Virus record (IMG/VR): IMGVR_UViG_3300022752_000290
Span: 1 to 29,290 of that record
DNA length: 29,290 nucleotides
Strand: one strand, 5' to 3'
Origin: a virus
The number at the start of each line of letters is the position of its first letter. Within the stretch, counting starts at the first letter, position 1. The translations under genes and the position numbers were made by a program. Positions 1,736-29,290 of the stretch are shown one piece after another. Below the pieces are notes generated by a model, which had not been told where the DNA came from, made no database searches, and saw only the letters and a program-made list of their open reading frames with translations.

Positions 1736-2038
1736 TTAGGCTTTTGGTGATACACGAATAGAAGCACCTTTAGTGGTGTACTTCGCAATTTGTTCTGGGG
1801 TAGCACCCAGCTCTGCTAACAGAGCTTTGTAGTCTACGGTAGTTGTGTTGACCAAGCTTACGGTCACACCGTACTGCTCGCCGCGGTGATTGCCTTCGCC
1901 CAGCTCATTAGCAATTTGATCTTTCAGCTCTTTGCACTTGGCGGTGAGGTCTTTGACTTGGCGGTCTAACACGGCCAAAGTGTCGATGGGGTTTGCCAGG
2001 CTGAGGGCAAGGGATTCGGCGGTAGTAATTGCGTTCAT
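1736..2038 (-). CDS. Coiled-coil phage protein, unknown function (100 aa)
   Basis: The product starts MNAITTAESLALSLANPID. A helical segment with heptad character follows (LDRQVKDLTAKCKELKDQIANEL), then a beta-like region (GVTVSLVNTTTVDYKALLAE) and a basic end, RVSPKA. The order of helix, then a YG-V-TVS-x-V strand, then a KALL helix is seen in many small phage proteins annotated as hypothetical. It is the first gene after the first copy of the repeated intergenic module, so it probably has its own promoter. The ribosome site is weak (GAAAGACAGAT before the ATG), unlike that of its neighbours. Confidence 0.8.
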   Translation of the reverse strand: MNAITTAESLALSLANPIDTLAVLDRQVKDLTAKCKELKDQIANELGEGNHRGEQYGVTVSLVNTTTVDYKALLAELGATPEQIAKYTTKGASIRVSPKA

Positions 2039-2045
2039 ATCTGTC

Positions 2046-2153
2046 TTTCTTCGTTACCTGCACATCGCAGTGATATGGAGTTTAACTCAAAGTTAAAGAA
2101 ATACAAGGACTTTTGCAGGAATTTGCAAAATATTTTTATAAGTACTTACCCTA
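2046..2153 (-). promoter_or_regulatory. Repeated promoter-operator module, copy 1
   Basis: Read leftward, the module starts in the last codons of the 271-aa gene (AGGGTAAGTACTTA). It continues with AAAAATATTTTGCAAA, a -35 TTGTAT and, after 16 bases, a -10 TAAACT. The dyad TTTAA-N7-TTAAA (2081-2097) fills the spacer and -10. In the leader, CTGC and GCAG arms (2058-2061 and 2067-2070) can form a hairpin ahead of GGTAACGA and the start codon. It is strongly similar to copies near 2968-3054 and 3660-3775. Confidence 0.7.
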
Positions 2154-2961
2154 ATGCCACCTCAACCACCTTGGGGCGCTGGATGACGGTCTGCTTCACG
2201 CCGTTGTACACGGTATGCTCTTTGACGCTGGCTTTGATGGTGCGGGTGTCGCCCTTGTTTCCAATGTCGGTCTTGCCCTTGTAGGTGATTGCGTTGCCTT
2301 GCTCATCGCTGGCAATAGTGATGTAGTTGTCGCCATAAAACTCGGACTTGAGCACAATCACGCGCTCAACTGTGATGGTGAGAGTGACCTTATCTCCGAC
2401 TGCACCAAGGTGCTGGCTGTTGGCGCGAGCAGCCTCAAGGCGGTCAATCACCGCAAAGCAGGACTCGACAGCCTCTACTTGGCGAGCGGTTAAGTTGCCC
2501 CAACTGGCCAAGTTGTAAGCCATGCTACGCAGGAACTCATTAGTGCCCTCATAAGCCGTCAAACGGGTCACCAAGGCGCTGTTGGCATCGCGCCACGCTA
2601 AGCCCGCCAAGATGCGTTCTGTTTGGCGCTGTGCGCGTTCTGCCTCAATTTGAGCCTTGCGAGCTTCGCGGCGTTTTTGTGCGCCAGCTTGGCGACGTGC
2701 GCGTATGTGGTCGGCGCGAACCTTTTCAAAGCCATCGATACCCCAACCAGTCTTGGCAACGCAATCACAGCCTACCTTGAACTGACGGGCGCCAGCGACG
2801 CTACCCTTGATCCAGAACTCCCAGCGAATGCCAGTACCGCAATAGTCGCAGCAGCCGCCAGCCTTGCTGGTGCCGTCAGGCAACGTAAAGACGTTCTCGC
2901 TGACGTGTGTGCATGAAAAGGGGGCTTTGCCAAGTCCTGCTTTTTCAAAAGGGTGTGTCAT
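2146..2961 (-). CDS. Zinc-finger phage protein of unknown function (271 aa)
   Basis: The N-terminal part holds four cysteines typical of a zinc ribbon: CCDYCGTG around residues 37-41 and GCDC at 64-66. A long helical, very basic and Gln-rich segment follows (about 84-120, many Arg, Lys and Ala), then a helical middle and a beta-rich C-terminal third (KVTLTITVERV, DNYITIASDEQGNAITY) that could be an OB-like fold. I infer nucleic-acid binding; no catalytic motif is visible. Similar Zn-ribbon proteins occur in other phages as hypothetical proteins. The gene is the only one transcribed directly from module copy 2, and its last codons form the start of copy 1. Confidence 0.8.
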   Translation of the reverse strand: MTHPFEKAGLGKAPFSCTHVSENVFTLPDGTSKAGGCCDYCGTGIRWEFWIKGSVAGARQFKVGCDCVAKTGWGIDGFEKVRADHIRARRQAGAQKRREARKAQIEAERAQRQTERILAGLAWRDANSALVTRLTAYEGTNEFLRSMAYNLASWGNLTARQVEAVESCFAVIDRLEAARANSQHLGAVGDKVTLTITVERVIVLKSEFYGDNYITIASDEQGNAITYKGKTDIGNKGDTRTIKASVKEHTVYNGVKQTVIQRPKVVEVALG

Positions 2962-2967
2962 GTTTTG

Positions 2968-3054
2968 CTTTCTATCGTTCCTGCAACATCGCAGTGGTTG
3001 TATCTTAACTTAAAATTAAAGGATTACAAGACTTTTTTCTAGGTATTTTCCCTA
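2968..3054 (-). promoter_or_regulatory. Repeated promoter-operator module, copy 2
   Basis: This is a shorter version of the module. It begins in the last codons of the 49-aa gene (AGGGAAAATACCTAG) and lacks the TTTTGCAAA stretch of the other copies. It keeps -35 TTGTAA, a 16-base spacer, -10 TAAGAT, a slightly decayed dyad (CTTAA-N7-TTAAA, 3004-3020) and the leader hairpin with CTGC and GCAG arms (2981-2984, 2991-2994). The 271-aa gene starts directly after it. Confidence 0.65.
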
Positions 3055-3188
3055 GGTTCTTCCCAACGGCTACCTTCCCAAGTCTCTGGGTCACGGTCAT
3101 AACAAGCTGCCTCATAAGCCTCTTGCCTTGTAAGGTGGTACTTGATCTCTAAGAATTCTTGGCGTGCAATCAATTCATCGTAAGTCAT
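3039..3188 (-). CDS. Small acidic protein, unknown function (49 aa)
   Basis: The start is the ATG 6 bases after a strong GGAGG (AAGGAGGTTTGAGATG). Earlier in-frame codons overlap the preceding gene and lack a ribosome site. The product begins MTYDELIARQEFLEIKYHLT and ends EEPRENT; it is mostly charged and helical. The ribosome site overlaps the end of the upstream gene, so translation is probably coupled. Its last four codons (RENT) match the end of the Ref-like gene (RVNT) because both lie in copies of the same repeated module. No family recognised. Confidence 0.7.
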   Translation of the reverse strand: MTYDELIARQEFLEIKYHLTRQEAYEAACYDRDPETWEGSRWEEPRENT

Positions 3189-3189
3189 C

Positions 3190-3435
3190 TCAAACCTCCT
3201 TACTAATCCATAATTTTGATCCAACTTTCTCGGCCCAGAATTGGTCGGGGTATAGTGCCCAATCATTGCCAACTTCGTCAGTTGGCTTTGTTACGTTCAT
3301 ACAAAAGTAGTTACCGCCCGCAGTAAAAATCTGTTTTTTTGTGCGGGTTGATTGGTACTGGTACTCATTTTTAAAGTGTTGGTTTGACTCATACTCTAAT
3401 CCAAGAGTTGCTGCAATTGCTTCAAGGCGGGTCAT
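3190..3435 (-). CDS. Small phage protein, unknown function (81 aa)
   Basis: The ATG after AAGGAGGTTTGAG is the start. The product begins MTRLEAIAATLGLEYESNQH, a helix, followed by a probable beta-rich domain with aromatic residues (FTAGGNYFCMNVTKPTDE) and ends SKLWISKEV. It could be a small single-domain binding protein; no motif is known to me. The final codons, AAG GAG GTT TGA, are also the ribosome site of the next gene. The preceding 72-aa gene ends the same way, in KEV. Confidence 0.75.
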   Translation of the reverse strand: MTRLEAIAATLGLEYESNQHFKNEYQYQSTRTKKQIFTAGGNYFCMNVTKPTDEVGNDWALYPDQFWAEKVGSKLWISKEV

Positions 3436-3436
3436 C

Positions 3437-3655
3437 TCAAACCTCCTTGGTGATGAGGTACTCGTGGGCATAGTCCAAAGACTCCACGGCAGCAATGATG
3501 TGGTCTTGGTGCTTCATTGGGCTACGTGTGAGCTTTGCAGTCAACGCTGCGATGATTGCGGCTGCGGCGTGCTCAGTAATCTGAGTGTCGTCCATTGCGT
3601 TGATGGCGCGTAGTGCGTTTGCTGCCACCATGTATCCGTGTTCCATATCGTCCAT
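3437..3655 (-). CDS. Small helical protein, unknown function (72 aa)
   Basis: I choose the ATG preceded by CAAGGAAGCAAG. Another ATG 30 bases upstream lies inside the conserved leader of module copy 3, in the hairpin loop, and lacks a ribosome site. The product starts MDDMEHGYMVAANALRAINA. It is Ala-rich and helical throughout (HAAAAIIAALTAKLTR) and ends in YLITKEV. It has no membrane character and no known motif. It is the first gene expressed from module copy 3, followed by the 81- and 49-aa genes. Confidence 0.75.
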   Translation of the reverse strand: MDDMEHGYMVAANALRAINAMDDTQITEHAAAAIIAALTAKLTRSPMKHQDHIIAAVESLDYAHEYLITKEV

Positions 3656-3659
3656 CTTG

Positions 3660-3775
3660 CTTCCTTGTATCGTTACCTGCGACATTGCAGTGATTGGAAG
3701 TTTAACCGAAAGTTAAAGGAATGCAAGGACTTTTTGTAGATTTTGCAAAAATATTTTTCTAGGTGTTTACCCTAG
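3660..3775 (-). promoter_or_regulatory. Repeated promoter-operator module, copy 3
   Basis: Read leftward, the module begins in the last codons of the Ref-like gene (AGGGTAAACACCTAG), then AAAAATATTTTTGCAAAA, -35 TTGCAT, a 16-base spacer and -10 TAAACT. The dyad TTTAA-CCGAAAG-TTAAA (3701-3717) is exact in both arms. The leader hairpin has CTGC and GCAG arms (3677-3680, 3687-3690). The 72-aa gene starts just after. Copies 1 and 3 are the closest pair, alignable with few gaps over about 110 bases. Confidence 0.7.
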
Positions 3776-7311: not shown

Positions 7312-7970
7312 ATGGCCCCCGCAATAATGCCAGTAGAAGTCTTGGGGTAGCGGTCTGTAGTCTGCTTTTCAGCAGCAAATTGGTTGGCTTTACGCATCCA
7401 GTTGCGCCACGTCCCAACCCAGTCACTCTTAGCCGCGGTAAATTCGTAATCGCGGAACACCTTGGTTTGCTCGGCATAGTCAACCAATGGGCATTCGGTC
7501 TTCACCCAAGTCTTCATGTCGTCAGTAACCTCAAAGTCTTTGGGGCACTTCTTGGCTGGCCTCTTTGCGAAAGATGGTTCTTGTTTCTTGGTTATTGTTT
7601 CTTGTTTTATGTTTGGTTGAACGTCCGTTGCAACGACCGTTGAACGCTTGCTCAACCGACGTTCAGCGGATGCTTTACCCGCCTTAGACGCCTGTTGAAT
7701 TTTTGCCCTGTAATCCTCAATGACTAGGTCTGCTCGCTTATTTACCCAGCCATCTTCTGTAAGCTTGAAAAACTCTTCTAAGACGGTCTGGACTTCAGTT
7801 TCATGCTCTCGCATTCCTATCTGACGTGCAACGTGCGCTACACCGCTGTTCAACGGACGTTCGTGAAGGTAATAAAGATCTAACAAGCGCCTGTAGGCAA
7901 TGTCTTCAAGCAAAGACAAATGAGTGGTATGGGACTTATAGTCCCCAATGTTGAATTGGAAATAGTGCAT
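7308..7970 (-). CDS. DUF1376 (YdaU-like) phage replication protein
   Basis: The first 85 residues carry the DUF1376 signature: MHYFQFNIGDYKSHTTHLSL, then LEDIAYRRLLDLYYLHERPL, then a helical region ending WVNKRADLVIEDYRAK. The family is found in phage and prophage replication modules, often in the place of a replication initiator. The middle is a low-complexity basic linker (KAGKASAERRLSKRS). The C-terminal part (KTWVKTECPLVDYAEQTKVF, WVGTWRNWMRKANQF) is the usual helical tail. It is the first gene after the small HTH regulator. A possible hairpin upstream could cover its ribosome site region. Confidence 0.85.
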   Translation of the reverse strand: MHYFQFNIGDYKSHTTHLSLLEDIAYRRLLDLYYLHERPLNSGVAHVARQIGMREHETEVQTVLEEFFKLTEDGWVNKRADLVIEDYRAKIQQASKAGKASAERRLSKRSTVVATDVQPNIKQETITKKQEPSFAKRPAKKCPKDFEVTDDMKTWVKTECPLVDYAEQTKVFRDYEFTAAKSDWVGTWRNWMRKANQFAAEKQTTDRYPKTSTGIIAGAI

Positions 7971-8073: not shown

Positions 8074-8274
8074 TCACGAAAATAAATCAGGCCGCAAATC
8101 TGCCTTGGTGACCAATCCTTGGGTAGCCTCTTCTATTGCCAAAGCCAGCTTAGGGGACGCCTTACGCTTGCCGTTGATCAAAAGGCTAAACCATGTCAAG
8201 GATATGCCCAAGTAAATGGCCATTTCGCTTTTTGCGCCTCGTGGCTCTTCTTTAAAGTAGTCTGTCAGTGTCAT
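8074..8274 (-). CDS. YdaS/Cro-like HTH regulator
   Basis: The 66-residue protein is a Cro/YdaS-type single HTH domain: MTLTDYFKEEPRGAKSEM, IYLGISLTWFSLLINGKRK as the turn and recognition helix, SPKLALAIEEATQGLVT, and the typical end DLRPDLFS. I chose the ATG preceded by AGGGA; an upstream in-frame ATG lacks a ribosome site. Its place, divergent from the rightward replication genes, is classic for a lambda-like switch. The likely -35 TTGTTT and -10 CATACT (17-base spacer) overlap the dyad TTTTA-GT-TAAAA, which would allow autoregulation. Whether it acts as Cro or as the main repressor is open. Confidence 0.85.
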   Translation of the reverse strand: MTLTDYFKEEPRGAKSEMAIYLGISLTWFSLLINGKRKASPKLALAIEEATQGLVTKADLRPDLFS

Positions 8275-8345
8275 AGTTGTCCCTTTCAGATCGGCAGTAT
8301 GACACAAACTTTTAGTTAAAACAACCCCAAGTTTTACTCAAGTAT

Positions 8346-8362
8346 TTTAACCGTTGATTAAA
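8346..8362. promoter_or_regulatory. Operator dyad TTTAA-N7-TTAAA in the rightward promoter
   Basis: TTTAA-CCGTTGA-TTAAA has perfect arms and the same 7-base spacer as the dyads of the leftward modules at 2081, 3004 and 3701 and of the site at 1494. It overlaps the only promoter-like element for the rightward genes, so a bound regulator would repress them. The HTH gene beside it is the likely source of the binding protein. Confidence 0.55.
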
Positions 8363-8381
8363 TTGTGGTGTAATGCATGCA

Positions 8382-8400
8382 CGCCGATACGGCGGTTTTT
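8382..8400 (+). terminator. Short GC hairpin with T tract in the rightward leader
   Basis: CGCCG-ATA-CGGCG forms a perfect 5-bp stem with a triloop, followed by GTTTTT. It ends immediately before the AGGAG ribosome site of the first rightward gene. It could be an attenuator that stops early transcripts unless antitermination occurs, or a hairpin that protects the 5' end of the mRNA. The stem is short, so termination would be partial. Confidence 0.45.
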
Positions 8401-27350: not shown

Positions 27351-29290
27351 TTAGAATGTTCCACCAGCAACGGCAGTAACTCCGTACCCTGATAGTGTAG
27401 TGGGTTTATTTGTCAAATCTGCAAATGAACCAGAAAAAAGTGTAGGCTTACCAGTCAGATCGCCGTAATCCCCAGAAGTTGCAACTGTAGCCAAACTGGG
27501 CTTGCCAGACAAGTCAGAGTAAACACCAGAGAACAATGTAGGCTTGTTCTTCAAGTCGTTGTAAGAGCCGCTTGTCGCCACGGTAGACAGGCTAGAAGTA
27601 TCTGCTTTACCAGAGATAGCTGTTCCCACATAAGATTCAGTAGCAAGCGGAACCTCTTGGGTCGTAGGGCCAGCAACCCACTTACCTGCGGACTCTTTCC
27701 AGATCAGACGCTGACGGGCCAAGTCACCACGATCCACGTCCAAACCAGCCACGTCCAAGCTAACGCCAGAACCAGCCTCACCCTTGTTTACGGTGATGAT
27801 GTTGTCTTTAACCACCAGAACGGTAGAGTTAACGGTAGTAGGAGTACCTGCTACAGTAAAGTTACCTGAAACGGTCAAGTTGCCCGAAACGGTTTGGTCG
27901 CCCACGGTAGCCACGGTAGGGGCGGTCATAGTGATTTGTGTGGCAGAACTCAAGCGAGTCAAGCCGCCTGTACCAGTAGACTGAACCACTACGTCAGCGT
28001 TAGATCCGCTAGAACCGATGGTTGTAGAAGCTACAGAGTCAAGCACCAAAGTACCAGAACCTGTGGTAGCGATACGCATACCTTGGTTCACGTCAGCAGT
28101 GAAGTTAATGGTGTTAGAAGAAGCGCCCAGAACTGGAACTCCGTCCACGTACAGAGTGTTTGCATCAATGTGCATTTCTTCTGTATAGATGGCGTTGAAC
28201 TTCTTGGTTGGAGAACCGATGTTGGAAACACCAGTCACAGCAGGAAGGATGTCGCCAGTCAGCGAAGCTACGTTAGCAGGAGCAAAACCCAGAGCGGTCT
28301 GGATGGAGCTAGAAGTTACCGATGCGTCAGAACCTGCGGGGCCTGTGGCACCCGTATCGCCTTTATCACCCTTCAGACCCTGAATACCTTGAGGGCCTTG
28401 TGCTCCTGTGGCACCTTGTGGGCCAGTAGCGCCTGTATCACCCTTGTCCCCCTTGGGGCCTTGGATACCCTGTGGCCCTTGTGCGCCAGTAGCTCCTGCG
28501 GGGCCAGTAGCGCCAGTATCGCCTTTGTCACCTTTTTCACCTTGTGGGCCTTGTGCGCCTGTGTCGCCTTTAACGCCTTGGATACCCTGTGGGCCTGTAG
28601 CTCCGGTAGCACCTGTGGCTCCGGTATCACCCTTAACACCTTGGATACCTTGTGGGCCTTGGGCACCAGTATCACCTTTAGCACCGTTAGGGCCAGCAGG
28701 GCCTTGAGCACCAGTGGCTCCGGTATCGCCTTTATCTCCCTTGTCGCCCTTCAACTGAGCGATGACACCAGCGGGGAGCGTGGTGACGTTAGACAGGTCT
28801 TTATTAGCTTTATTGGAAACAGTCGTTGTCAATGCGGAAACAGCCGTCTCGTCGTTAGCCAACTGAGCAGCAATCTCTTCCAAAGTATTCAGAGCATCGG
28901 GAGCAGCACCCACCACGGCTTGAATAGAAGCATCAATCTGGCTTTGAATGCTGGCAGAAGTCAAAACTGCCGAGCCGTTTACGTACACATTAGAAGTGTC
29001 GATGTGGACATTGCCCACGTCAATCACGGTAGCTTTAACTTCAGGGACATCCACAGAGTCAGGAGCCACCACCATCACTGTTCCGCGAACAGCTTCGGTA
29101 AATGTCAGGCGGAAAGAGTTGTTGTTGATGTCTTCTTTGCCAACAGAAACGATGTTGCCGTTCTGGTCTTTAACTTGAATCCAGACGTTGGTAGTACCAA
29201 GGTTGTGCTCCACAACCCAAGTGGTCGAGTCCAGACCTTGAGAGTGGATGTAAGACAGAGTCTTATGCGAGAAAGGATACCAAGTCTCCA
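27351..29290 (-). CDS. Collagen-like tail fibre, N-terminus outside the window
   Basis: The frame remains open to the right edge (residues [18 protein letters not shown] are visible there), so the start lies outside. A GTG inside the window would give a shorter product and lies mid-domain ([20 protein letters not shown]), so I reject it as start. Counting from that GTG: a beta domain to about 85, a helical region ([20 protein letters not shown]), then about 46 Gly-X-Y triplets (156-294), then a beta-rich stem and repeated DLxxKPTLFSG units ([20 protein letters not shown]) at the C-terminus. Trimeric fibre with collagen-like shaft is likely. Confidence 0.85.
28332..28748 (-). repeat. Collagen-like Gly-X-Y repeat DNA
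   Basis: About 417 bases encode consecutive Gly-X-Y triplets with recurring units [20 protein letters not shown] and GPAGATG. The DNA is internally repetitive (units of about 27-45 bases recur several times on this strand), so it is prone to slippage or recombination. Such tracts in phage fibres often vary in length between related phages. Confidence 0.8.

Follow-up and report, generated by a model that had tools for sequence, protein, structure and literature searches.

The leftward genes of a freshwater phage contig are punctuated three times by the same intergenic arrangement, which raises the question of what these repeats do and why they recur within one gene block. In the window, by which we mean the whole stretch of 29,290 bases of this viral contig that was analysed, the leftward genes span positions 8307 to 1 and encode a Cro/YdaS-like protein, a primosomal protein, a DnaB-like helicase, RusA, an HNH endonuclease and a Ref-like RecA-dependent nuclease, while a rightward gene block starts near 8377. 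The repeats, named modules A (3677-3774), B (2981-3054) and C (2058-2153) in order of transcription, all lie on the minus strand in the distal portion of the leftward block. Module A is directly followed by a gene without assigned function (3437-3655, minus strand; ATG at 3653-3655). Modules B and C enclose a cassette gene of 271 amino acids, also without assigned function (2146-2961, minus strand), and the gene directly after module C (1736-2038, minus strand; 100 amino acids) shows a weak match to the C-terminal part of the RecE-like phrog_434. The initial annotation had read the modules as re-initiation promoters under one regulator that may also act as homology linkers, and the sequence comparisons reported here support this reading. 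The best overall explanation, which we consider likely, is that the modules are promoters controlled by the phage's own Cro-like repressor and double as joints for gene exchange.

Named phages gave only weak DNA matches to the window, the complete genome MW202545 still being informative as a relative. Distant relatives of the 271-aa protein (about 30%) occur in large Aeromonas phages and, for its C-terminal half, in many other phages too; none was found in a one-genome-per-species set of 84,980 bacteria and archaea. Elsewhere in the window, the start region CATCTCAAACCTCCTT (plus strand) is repeated at 3184-3208 and 3432-3448, where it corresponds to the ribosome-binding sites of two genes; two relatives (L089 and L090) do not have the gene between these repeats, and their junction lies at that repeat. 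A short intergenic stretch (1062-1151) holds a pair of 40-nt direct repeats that are 73% alike and both contain CCCGATGGGG, and a tail-fibre-like protein (27351-29213) contains collagen-like Gly-X-Y repeats (28333-28730).

Read on the minus strand, a module consists of an upstream box TAGG-N7-CCTA, a UP-like A-tract, a -35 hexamer, a 16-bp spacer containing an operator dyad, a -10 hexamer, a hairpin and a start codon. Module A comprises the box TAGGGTAAACACCTA (3760-3774), the stretch AAAAATATTTTTGCAAA (3742-3758), the -35 TTGCAT (3721-3726) and the -10 TAAACT (3699-3704), the operator TTTAACTTTCGGTTAAA (3701-3717) and the leader hairpin CTGCAATGTCGCAG (3677-3690). In module B, the box TAGGGAAAATACCTA (3040-3054) is followed by an A-tract (3030-3038), the -35 TTGTAA (3024-3029), the -10 TAAGAT (3002-3007), the operator TTTAATTTTAAGTTAAG (3004-3020) and the hairpin CTGCGATGTTGCAG (2981-2994). 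Module C has a box ending in CTTA instead of CCTA, TAGGGTAAGTACTTA (2139-2153), a UP-like stretch (2121-2137), the -35 TTGTAT (2101-2106), the -10 TAAACT (2079-2084), the operator TTTAACTTTGAGTTAAA (2081-2097) and the hairpin CTGCGATGTGCAG (2058-2070).

All the parts listed by the initial annotation were recovered on this strand, with a 16-nt spacer in the three copies and CTGC..GCAG hairpins with loops of 5-6. The description of the copies as near-identical is too strong: modules A and C agree at 60 of 76 positions (42 of 76 at the best unrelated place in the window), and module B is shorter and more divergent. For the dyad, two copies show a perfect TTTAA-N7-TTAAA, and the middle one reads TTTAA-N7-TTAAG. 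What had been taken for the last codons of the upstream gene is instead a quasi-palindromic, frame-independent DNA box: as its overlap with the upstream stop codons falls at different positions, coding conservation does not account for it. The dyad pattern TTTAACTTTNNGTTAAACT, allowing up to three mismatches, matches the window 3 times for 0.24 expected, and TTTAA-N7-TTAAA, allowing up to one, 8 times for 2.5 expected; none of 100 shuffles reached either count.

To describe the module family, 160 loci were gathered by two protein searches of viral contigs, and 163 sequences were searched with a profile seeded from a regular expression and the three window copies and then iterated (cut-off E<0.01). 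Of these sequences, 108 contain the module, with 270 copies in all; not all copies are independent, since some loci overlap on one contig. The ATG of a same-strand ORF lies within 45 nt downstream of 260 of these copies (25% for random placement), and a same-strand stop precedes 255 (38% for random placement). Orientation is always sense, and no locus bears copies on both strands. Removal of duplicates left 194 modules, which stand ahead of 36 gene families. Eighteen records of 29-58 kb carry 2-4 modules each, which share the strand of the Cro-like gene and are confined to its downstream side, at distances of about 3-14 kb; the one exception is a marginal match at a repressor's own promoter. 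The dyad and the hairpin, on whose conservation in related phages the initial annotation had staked its reading, are both kept in the relatives. The idea that the modules and the Ref-like nuclease gene move together was rejected: most of the 55 module-less loci were recruited by that nuclease. Within the sequence stretches covered, none of the loci L091-L133 has a Cro-like gene.

The conserved parts describe a sigma-70 promoter with a UP element, namely a -35, a spacer of 16-18 nt, a -10 and an A/T-rich UP stretch. Nearly all modules have TACACT, TATACT, TAAACT, TACAAT or TAAGAT as -10 hexamer, the TTG is most often located 28 nt before the end of the -10 (spacer of 16), and an A-tract lies just upstream in 169 of the 194 modules. 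The 17-bp UP consensus AAAWWTWTTTTNNNAAA, as given by PMC2412878, is found in 16 modules and in 0 after shuffling; module A fits it without mismatch, at a position about one turn further upstream than standard. A generic sigma-70 scan of the window did not list the three module promoters, because their hexamers are weak against the consensus. The relatives have clearer -35/-10 pairs (TTGACA..TATACT/TACAAT), which, with the A-tracts and the single sense orientation before ATGs, argue for re-initiation promoters, and we infer that the modules are active as such.

A candidate regulator is encoded in the same block by the Cro/YdaS-like gene (8074-8271, minus strand; ATG start MTLTDYF, a longer ORF reaching 8307). 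Its product, a protein of 66 amino acids, matches PF15943 (YdaS) with 41.0 bits, for a curated cut-off of 30, as well as phrog_35 and the solved Cro proteins 8co2/8c7k (PDB, E about 5e-7); in Rac, YdaS is considered homologous to Cro (PMC5917428). The region separating this gene from the divergent block holds two operator-like dyads. A near-copy of the operator (8304-8320, minus strand) is located at the repressor's own promoter (8296-8324, minus strand; -35 TTGTTT at 8319-8324, -10 CATACT at 8296-8301), and the perfect dyad TTTAACCGTTGATTAAA (8346-8362) at the divergent rightward promoter (8346-8394, plus strand; possible -10 TGTAAT at 8369-8374). Both are candidate repressor sites.

The recognition helix of the repressor was compared with the operator half-site in 95 modules from 38 distinct genomes, and the two were concordant in 93 modules. 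The KQWMAA helix is found with GTGAA in 16 of 17 modules, KTWxSL with GTTTAA/GTGTAA in 56 of 57, LTWxSL with YTTTAA in 15 of 15 and RTWLAL with YTGTAA in 6 of 6. Across the classes, one position of the dyad shows compensatory changes, with G-C, T-A and C-G pairs; part of the right arm, however, is constrained by the promoter, since the operator overlaps the -10. MW202545 and L028 have operators of a fifth class, TCTAA-N7-TTAGA, and both carry a related site at the Cro-like gene. The rule has two exceptions among the modules. The clear one, in the KQWMAA class, is the L057 module at 7928 (also in L056 and L058), which has CTTCAAG and not the GTGAAA of its genome and is possibly a recently acquired cassette not yet matched to the repressor. 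That the helix of a linked Cro/YdaS-like protein predicts the half-site speaks for co-regulation by one protein, as had been proposed.

It is unlikely, in our estimation, that the operators belong to another regulator, from the host or the phage, and that the helix match only reflects the shared ancestry of one genome block. Modules and repressor do share one block, separated by a few kb, and the helix classes are clades; each operator class being one repressor clade, independent specificity switches are few. Nevertheless, the cassette gene between the modules does not follow the operator class: on the repressor tree (38 rows) the class changes 3 times, the minimum, which none of 200 shuffles equalled, whereas on the tree of the 271-aa gene, built from a different set of 21 rows, it changes 7 times, as in random data (47 of 200 shuffles as low). 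The differing residues align to the helix-turn-helix region of Cro 8co2/8c7k. Moreover, the class half-site recurs in the repressor's upstream region, GTGAAA in 7/7 of its own class versus 4/31 of the others and GTTTAA in 21/23 versus 0/15. Control by the phage's own repressor is the reading that we retain, with genes being shuffled between repressor types and the operators keeping their match.

Neither S24-type CI repressors (PF00717) nor tyrosine integrases (PF00589) were detected in the 18 records, the complete genome MW202545 included; among integrases, this search covered the tyrosine type. A temperate life style with a Cro-CI switch was rejected on these grounds, and the phages with modules are probably virulent.

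In contrast to the operator, the upstream box does not follow the repressor, since it is common to different operator classes and its two main variants occur together in 15 of 76 loci. At least 149 of the 194 modules have the form TAGGGWAARYMCCTA or a close one; in 2.0 Mb, the 8-mer TAGGGWAA was counted 197 times in forward and 30 times in reverse orientation. The distances from the box to the end of the -10 cluster at 53, 63-68 and 75-76 nt, which suggests helical phasing; the result is strong against a uniform null and comes mainly from the single 63-68 nt cluster. Searched against genomes, the strict box pattern gave two matches only, the level of chance.

The leader hairpin starts 8-9 nt after the -10 in the window modules, and its 5' arm begins 7-9 nt after the -10 in 173 of the 189 hairpin-bearing modules; it is therefore located at or within a few nucleotides of the expected +1. 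Its arms change together, the complementary variants being CTGC/GCAG, CTGAC/GTCAG, TCGAC/GTCGA, CGCC/GGCG, CGGTC/GACCG, CCAAC/GTTGG and CTACC/GGTAG. The reverse complement of nucleotides 8-11 is found in the same leader in 152 of 194 modules, compared to 27% in leaders with another arm. The rightward promoter has a hairpin with different arms at the same 8-nt distance (CGCCG-ATA-CGGCG, 8382-8394, plus strand). No Rfam family matched the window above its gathering score. In E. coli, it is established that a 5'-terminal stem-loop can stabilise mRNA (Emory 1992 and Bouvet 1992, both in the reference list of PMC3997798). The stem-loops of ompA and papA likewise lie within a few nucleotides of the expected transcript start; here the hairpin is repeated at every module of a phage operon, and by analogy its putative role would be to protect the mRNA 5' end, which we consider probable.

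Strong conservation of the hairpin, co-varying arms and a position directly before start codons would also be expected of leader elements that act only after transcription, in the translation or processing of one long mRNA, the likeness to -35 and -10 being incidental. We judge this quite unlikely, as some 70 nt upstream of the hairpin, covering A-tracts, -35, dyad and -10, are conserved too, and the dyad both matches the repressor class and recurs at the repressor's own promoters.

Very unlikely, too, is that the modules are composite terminator-promoters of the PeSL type which chiefly serve to stop upstream transcripts and start new ones. Upstream of the 271-aa gene in four loci (L029, L037, L053 and L081), the -35 does lie in the loop of a terminator-like hairpin (GGGGGTTGACGCCCCCTTTG, GGGGGTTGACGCCCCCTTTGTTTAA); terminator and promoter are fused there, which brings these elements closer to PeSLs in design than the modules of the window. 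In the window, by contrast, the stem-loop is downstream of the promoter and has no T-run, for which reason the hairpin was rejected as a terminator, and a scan for terminator-like sites detected none on the minus strand at any of modules A, B and C.

The proposal that the modules serve as homology linkers was assessed by comparing gene content between relatives, as the initial annotation had advised, and in seven of them (L084, L085, L086, L087, L089, L090 and L134) the junction falls at the modules. These relatives lack precisely the 271-aa gene that modules B and C enclose in the window: their homology to the window extends across module B and picks up again at module C, and the single module present is chimeric, B-like upstream and C-like towards the start codon, with the switch in the leader. 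Both modules and the gene are present in L041. The difference may reflect either loss by the relatives or gain by the window. The cassette genes shuffled between repressor types also speak for homology linkers. When near-identical cassettes of unlike operator type are compared, the operator ranks among the segments with the lowest similarity, as between L030 and L073 (CDS 96%, leader 87% and operator 60% alike). Separately, L087 (8378-8688) and L134 (about 278-588) have about 310 extra bases right after the module A leader and before the next gene, which is a second kind of cassette insertion, without its own module. Although modules A and C agree at 79% of the 76 nt compared and the chimeric modules reveal recombination between copies, it is highly improbable that the repeats are merely recent duplications homogenised by recombination, relics of gene insertion with no selected regulatory role, as their parts are kept in divergent relatives despite differing flanks and downstream genes (36 gene families), hairpin and dyad arms change together, and the sense orientation has no exception.

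With the modules read as repressor-controlled promoters, each copy would make up an expression cassette complete in itself, in a phage that is probably virulent. The next gene or genes would be driven by a sigma-70-type promoter with upstream box and A-tracts, and the dyad between -35 and -10, reaching into the -10, would serve as operator for the solitary Cro/YdaS-like repressor, whose gene belongs to the same leftward block and lies about 4.3 kb upstream. Transcripts would start at or next to the hairpin that probably shields their 5' ends. Early in infection all modules would fire; the accumulating repressor would then silence them jointly with its own promoter and the divergent one. The repetition of the module would allow homologous recombination between copies to add or remove one gene along with one module, and cassettes would carry the operator type of the resident repressor.

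Several known systems share part of this design. The promoter-early stem-loops (PeSLs) of T4-like phages (Arbiol 2010; Comeau 2014; PMC4503421) are likewise repeated intergenic cassettes of a promoter and a stem-loop in a gene-shuffling region, proposed to mediate gene gain and loss. The absent 271-aa gene and the chimeric module of the seven relatives mark such a gain or loss junction; however, the PeSLs of T4-like myoviruses are promoter-terminator composites, whereas here a leader hairpin without T-run follows the -10 and a repressor operator lies inside the promoter. The ESAS of cluster K mycobacteriophages (PMC3203893, PMC11373665) also combine several intergenic sigma-A-like promoters with an inverted repeat near start codons, whose consensus varies between subclusters. 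Their imperfect inverted repeat has 17-bp arms, its partner is not identified, and a 13-bp SAS at the start codon stands alongside; the dyads here have short arms of 5-7 bp that overlap the -10 and a likely repressor partner, the leader hairpin takes the place of the SAS, and no module-wide 13-bp start motif was seen across the modules. Stoperators of cluster A mycobacteriophages (PMC6550527) are many one-orientation sites for one phage repressor, and their consensus diverges with it, as in the concordance and the few tree changes reported above. Most of them, however, are outside promoters and block elongation, while all sites here are between -35 and -10, with 2-4 per genome. Finally, the YdaS/Cro early regulators of lambdoid phages (PF15943; PMC5917428) are small HTH proteins acting at divergent early promoters with operators, but in our 18 records no S24-type CI partner or tyrosine integrase accompanies the repressor, and operators are also found at internal promoters several kb away. 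The modules work like PeSLs and ESAS and share repressor-site co-divergence with stoperators, one defining feature of each being absent.

More tentatively, a widespread group of freshwater phages may organise its distal early region as interchangeable cassettes, each with a Cro-repressed promoter, a 5'-end hairpin and a recombination joint. Gene exchange would then be filtered by repressor specificity, because operators must match the resident Cro; breaks in the leader, downstream of the operator, would keep an incoming gene under local control, and some factor would bind the TAGG-N7-CCTA box at roughly helical-turn distances. The 38 repressor-operator pairings and the fifth operator class constitute a natural data set for the joint change in specificity of a repressor and its scattered operators. 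A regulator, operators and promoters can also be proposed for uncultivated freshwater phages otherwise without experimental annotation, together with a mechanism, open to testing, by which the early regions of phages other than the T4-like ones may exchange genes as modules.
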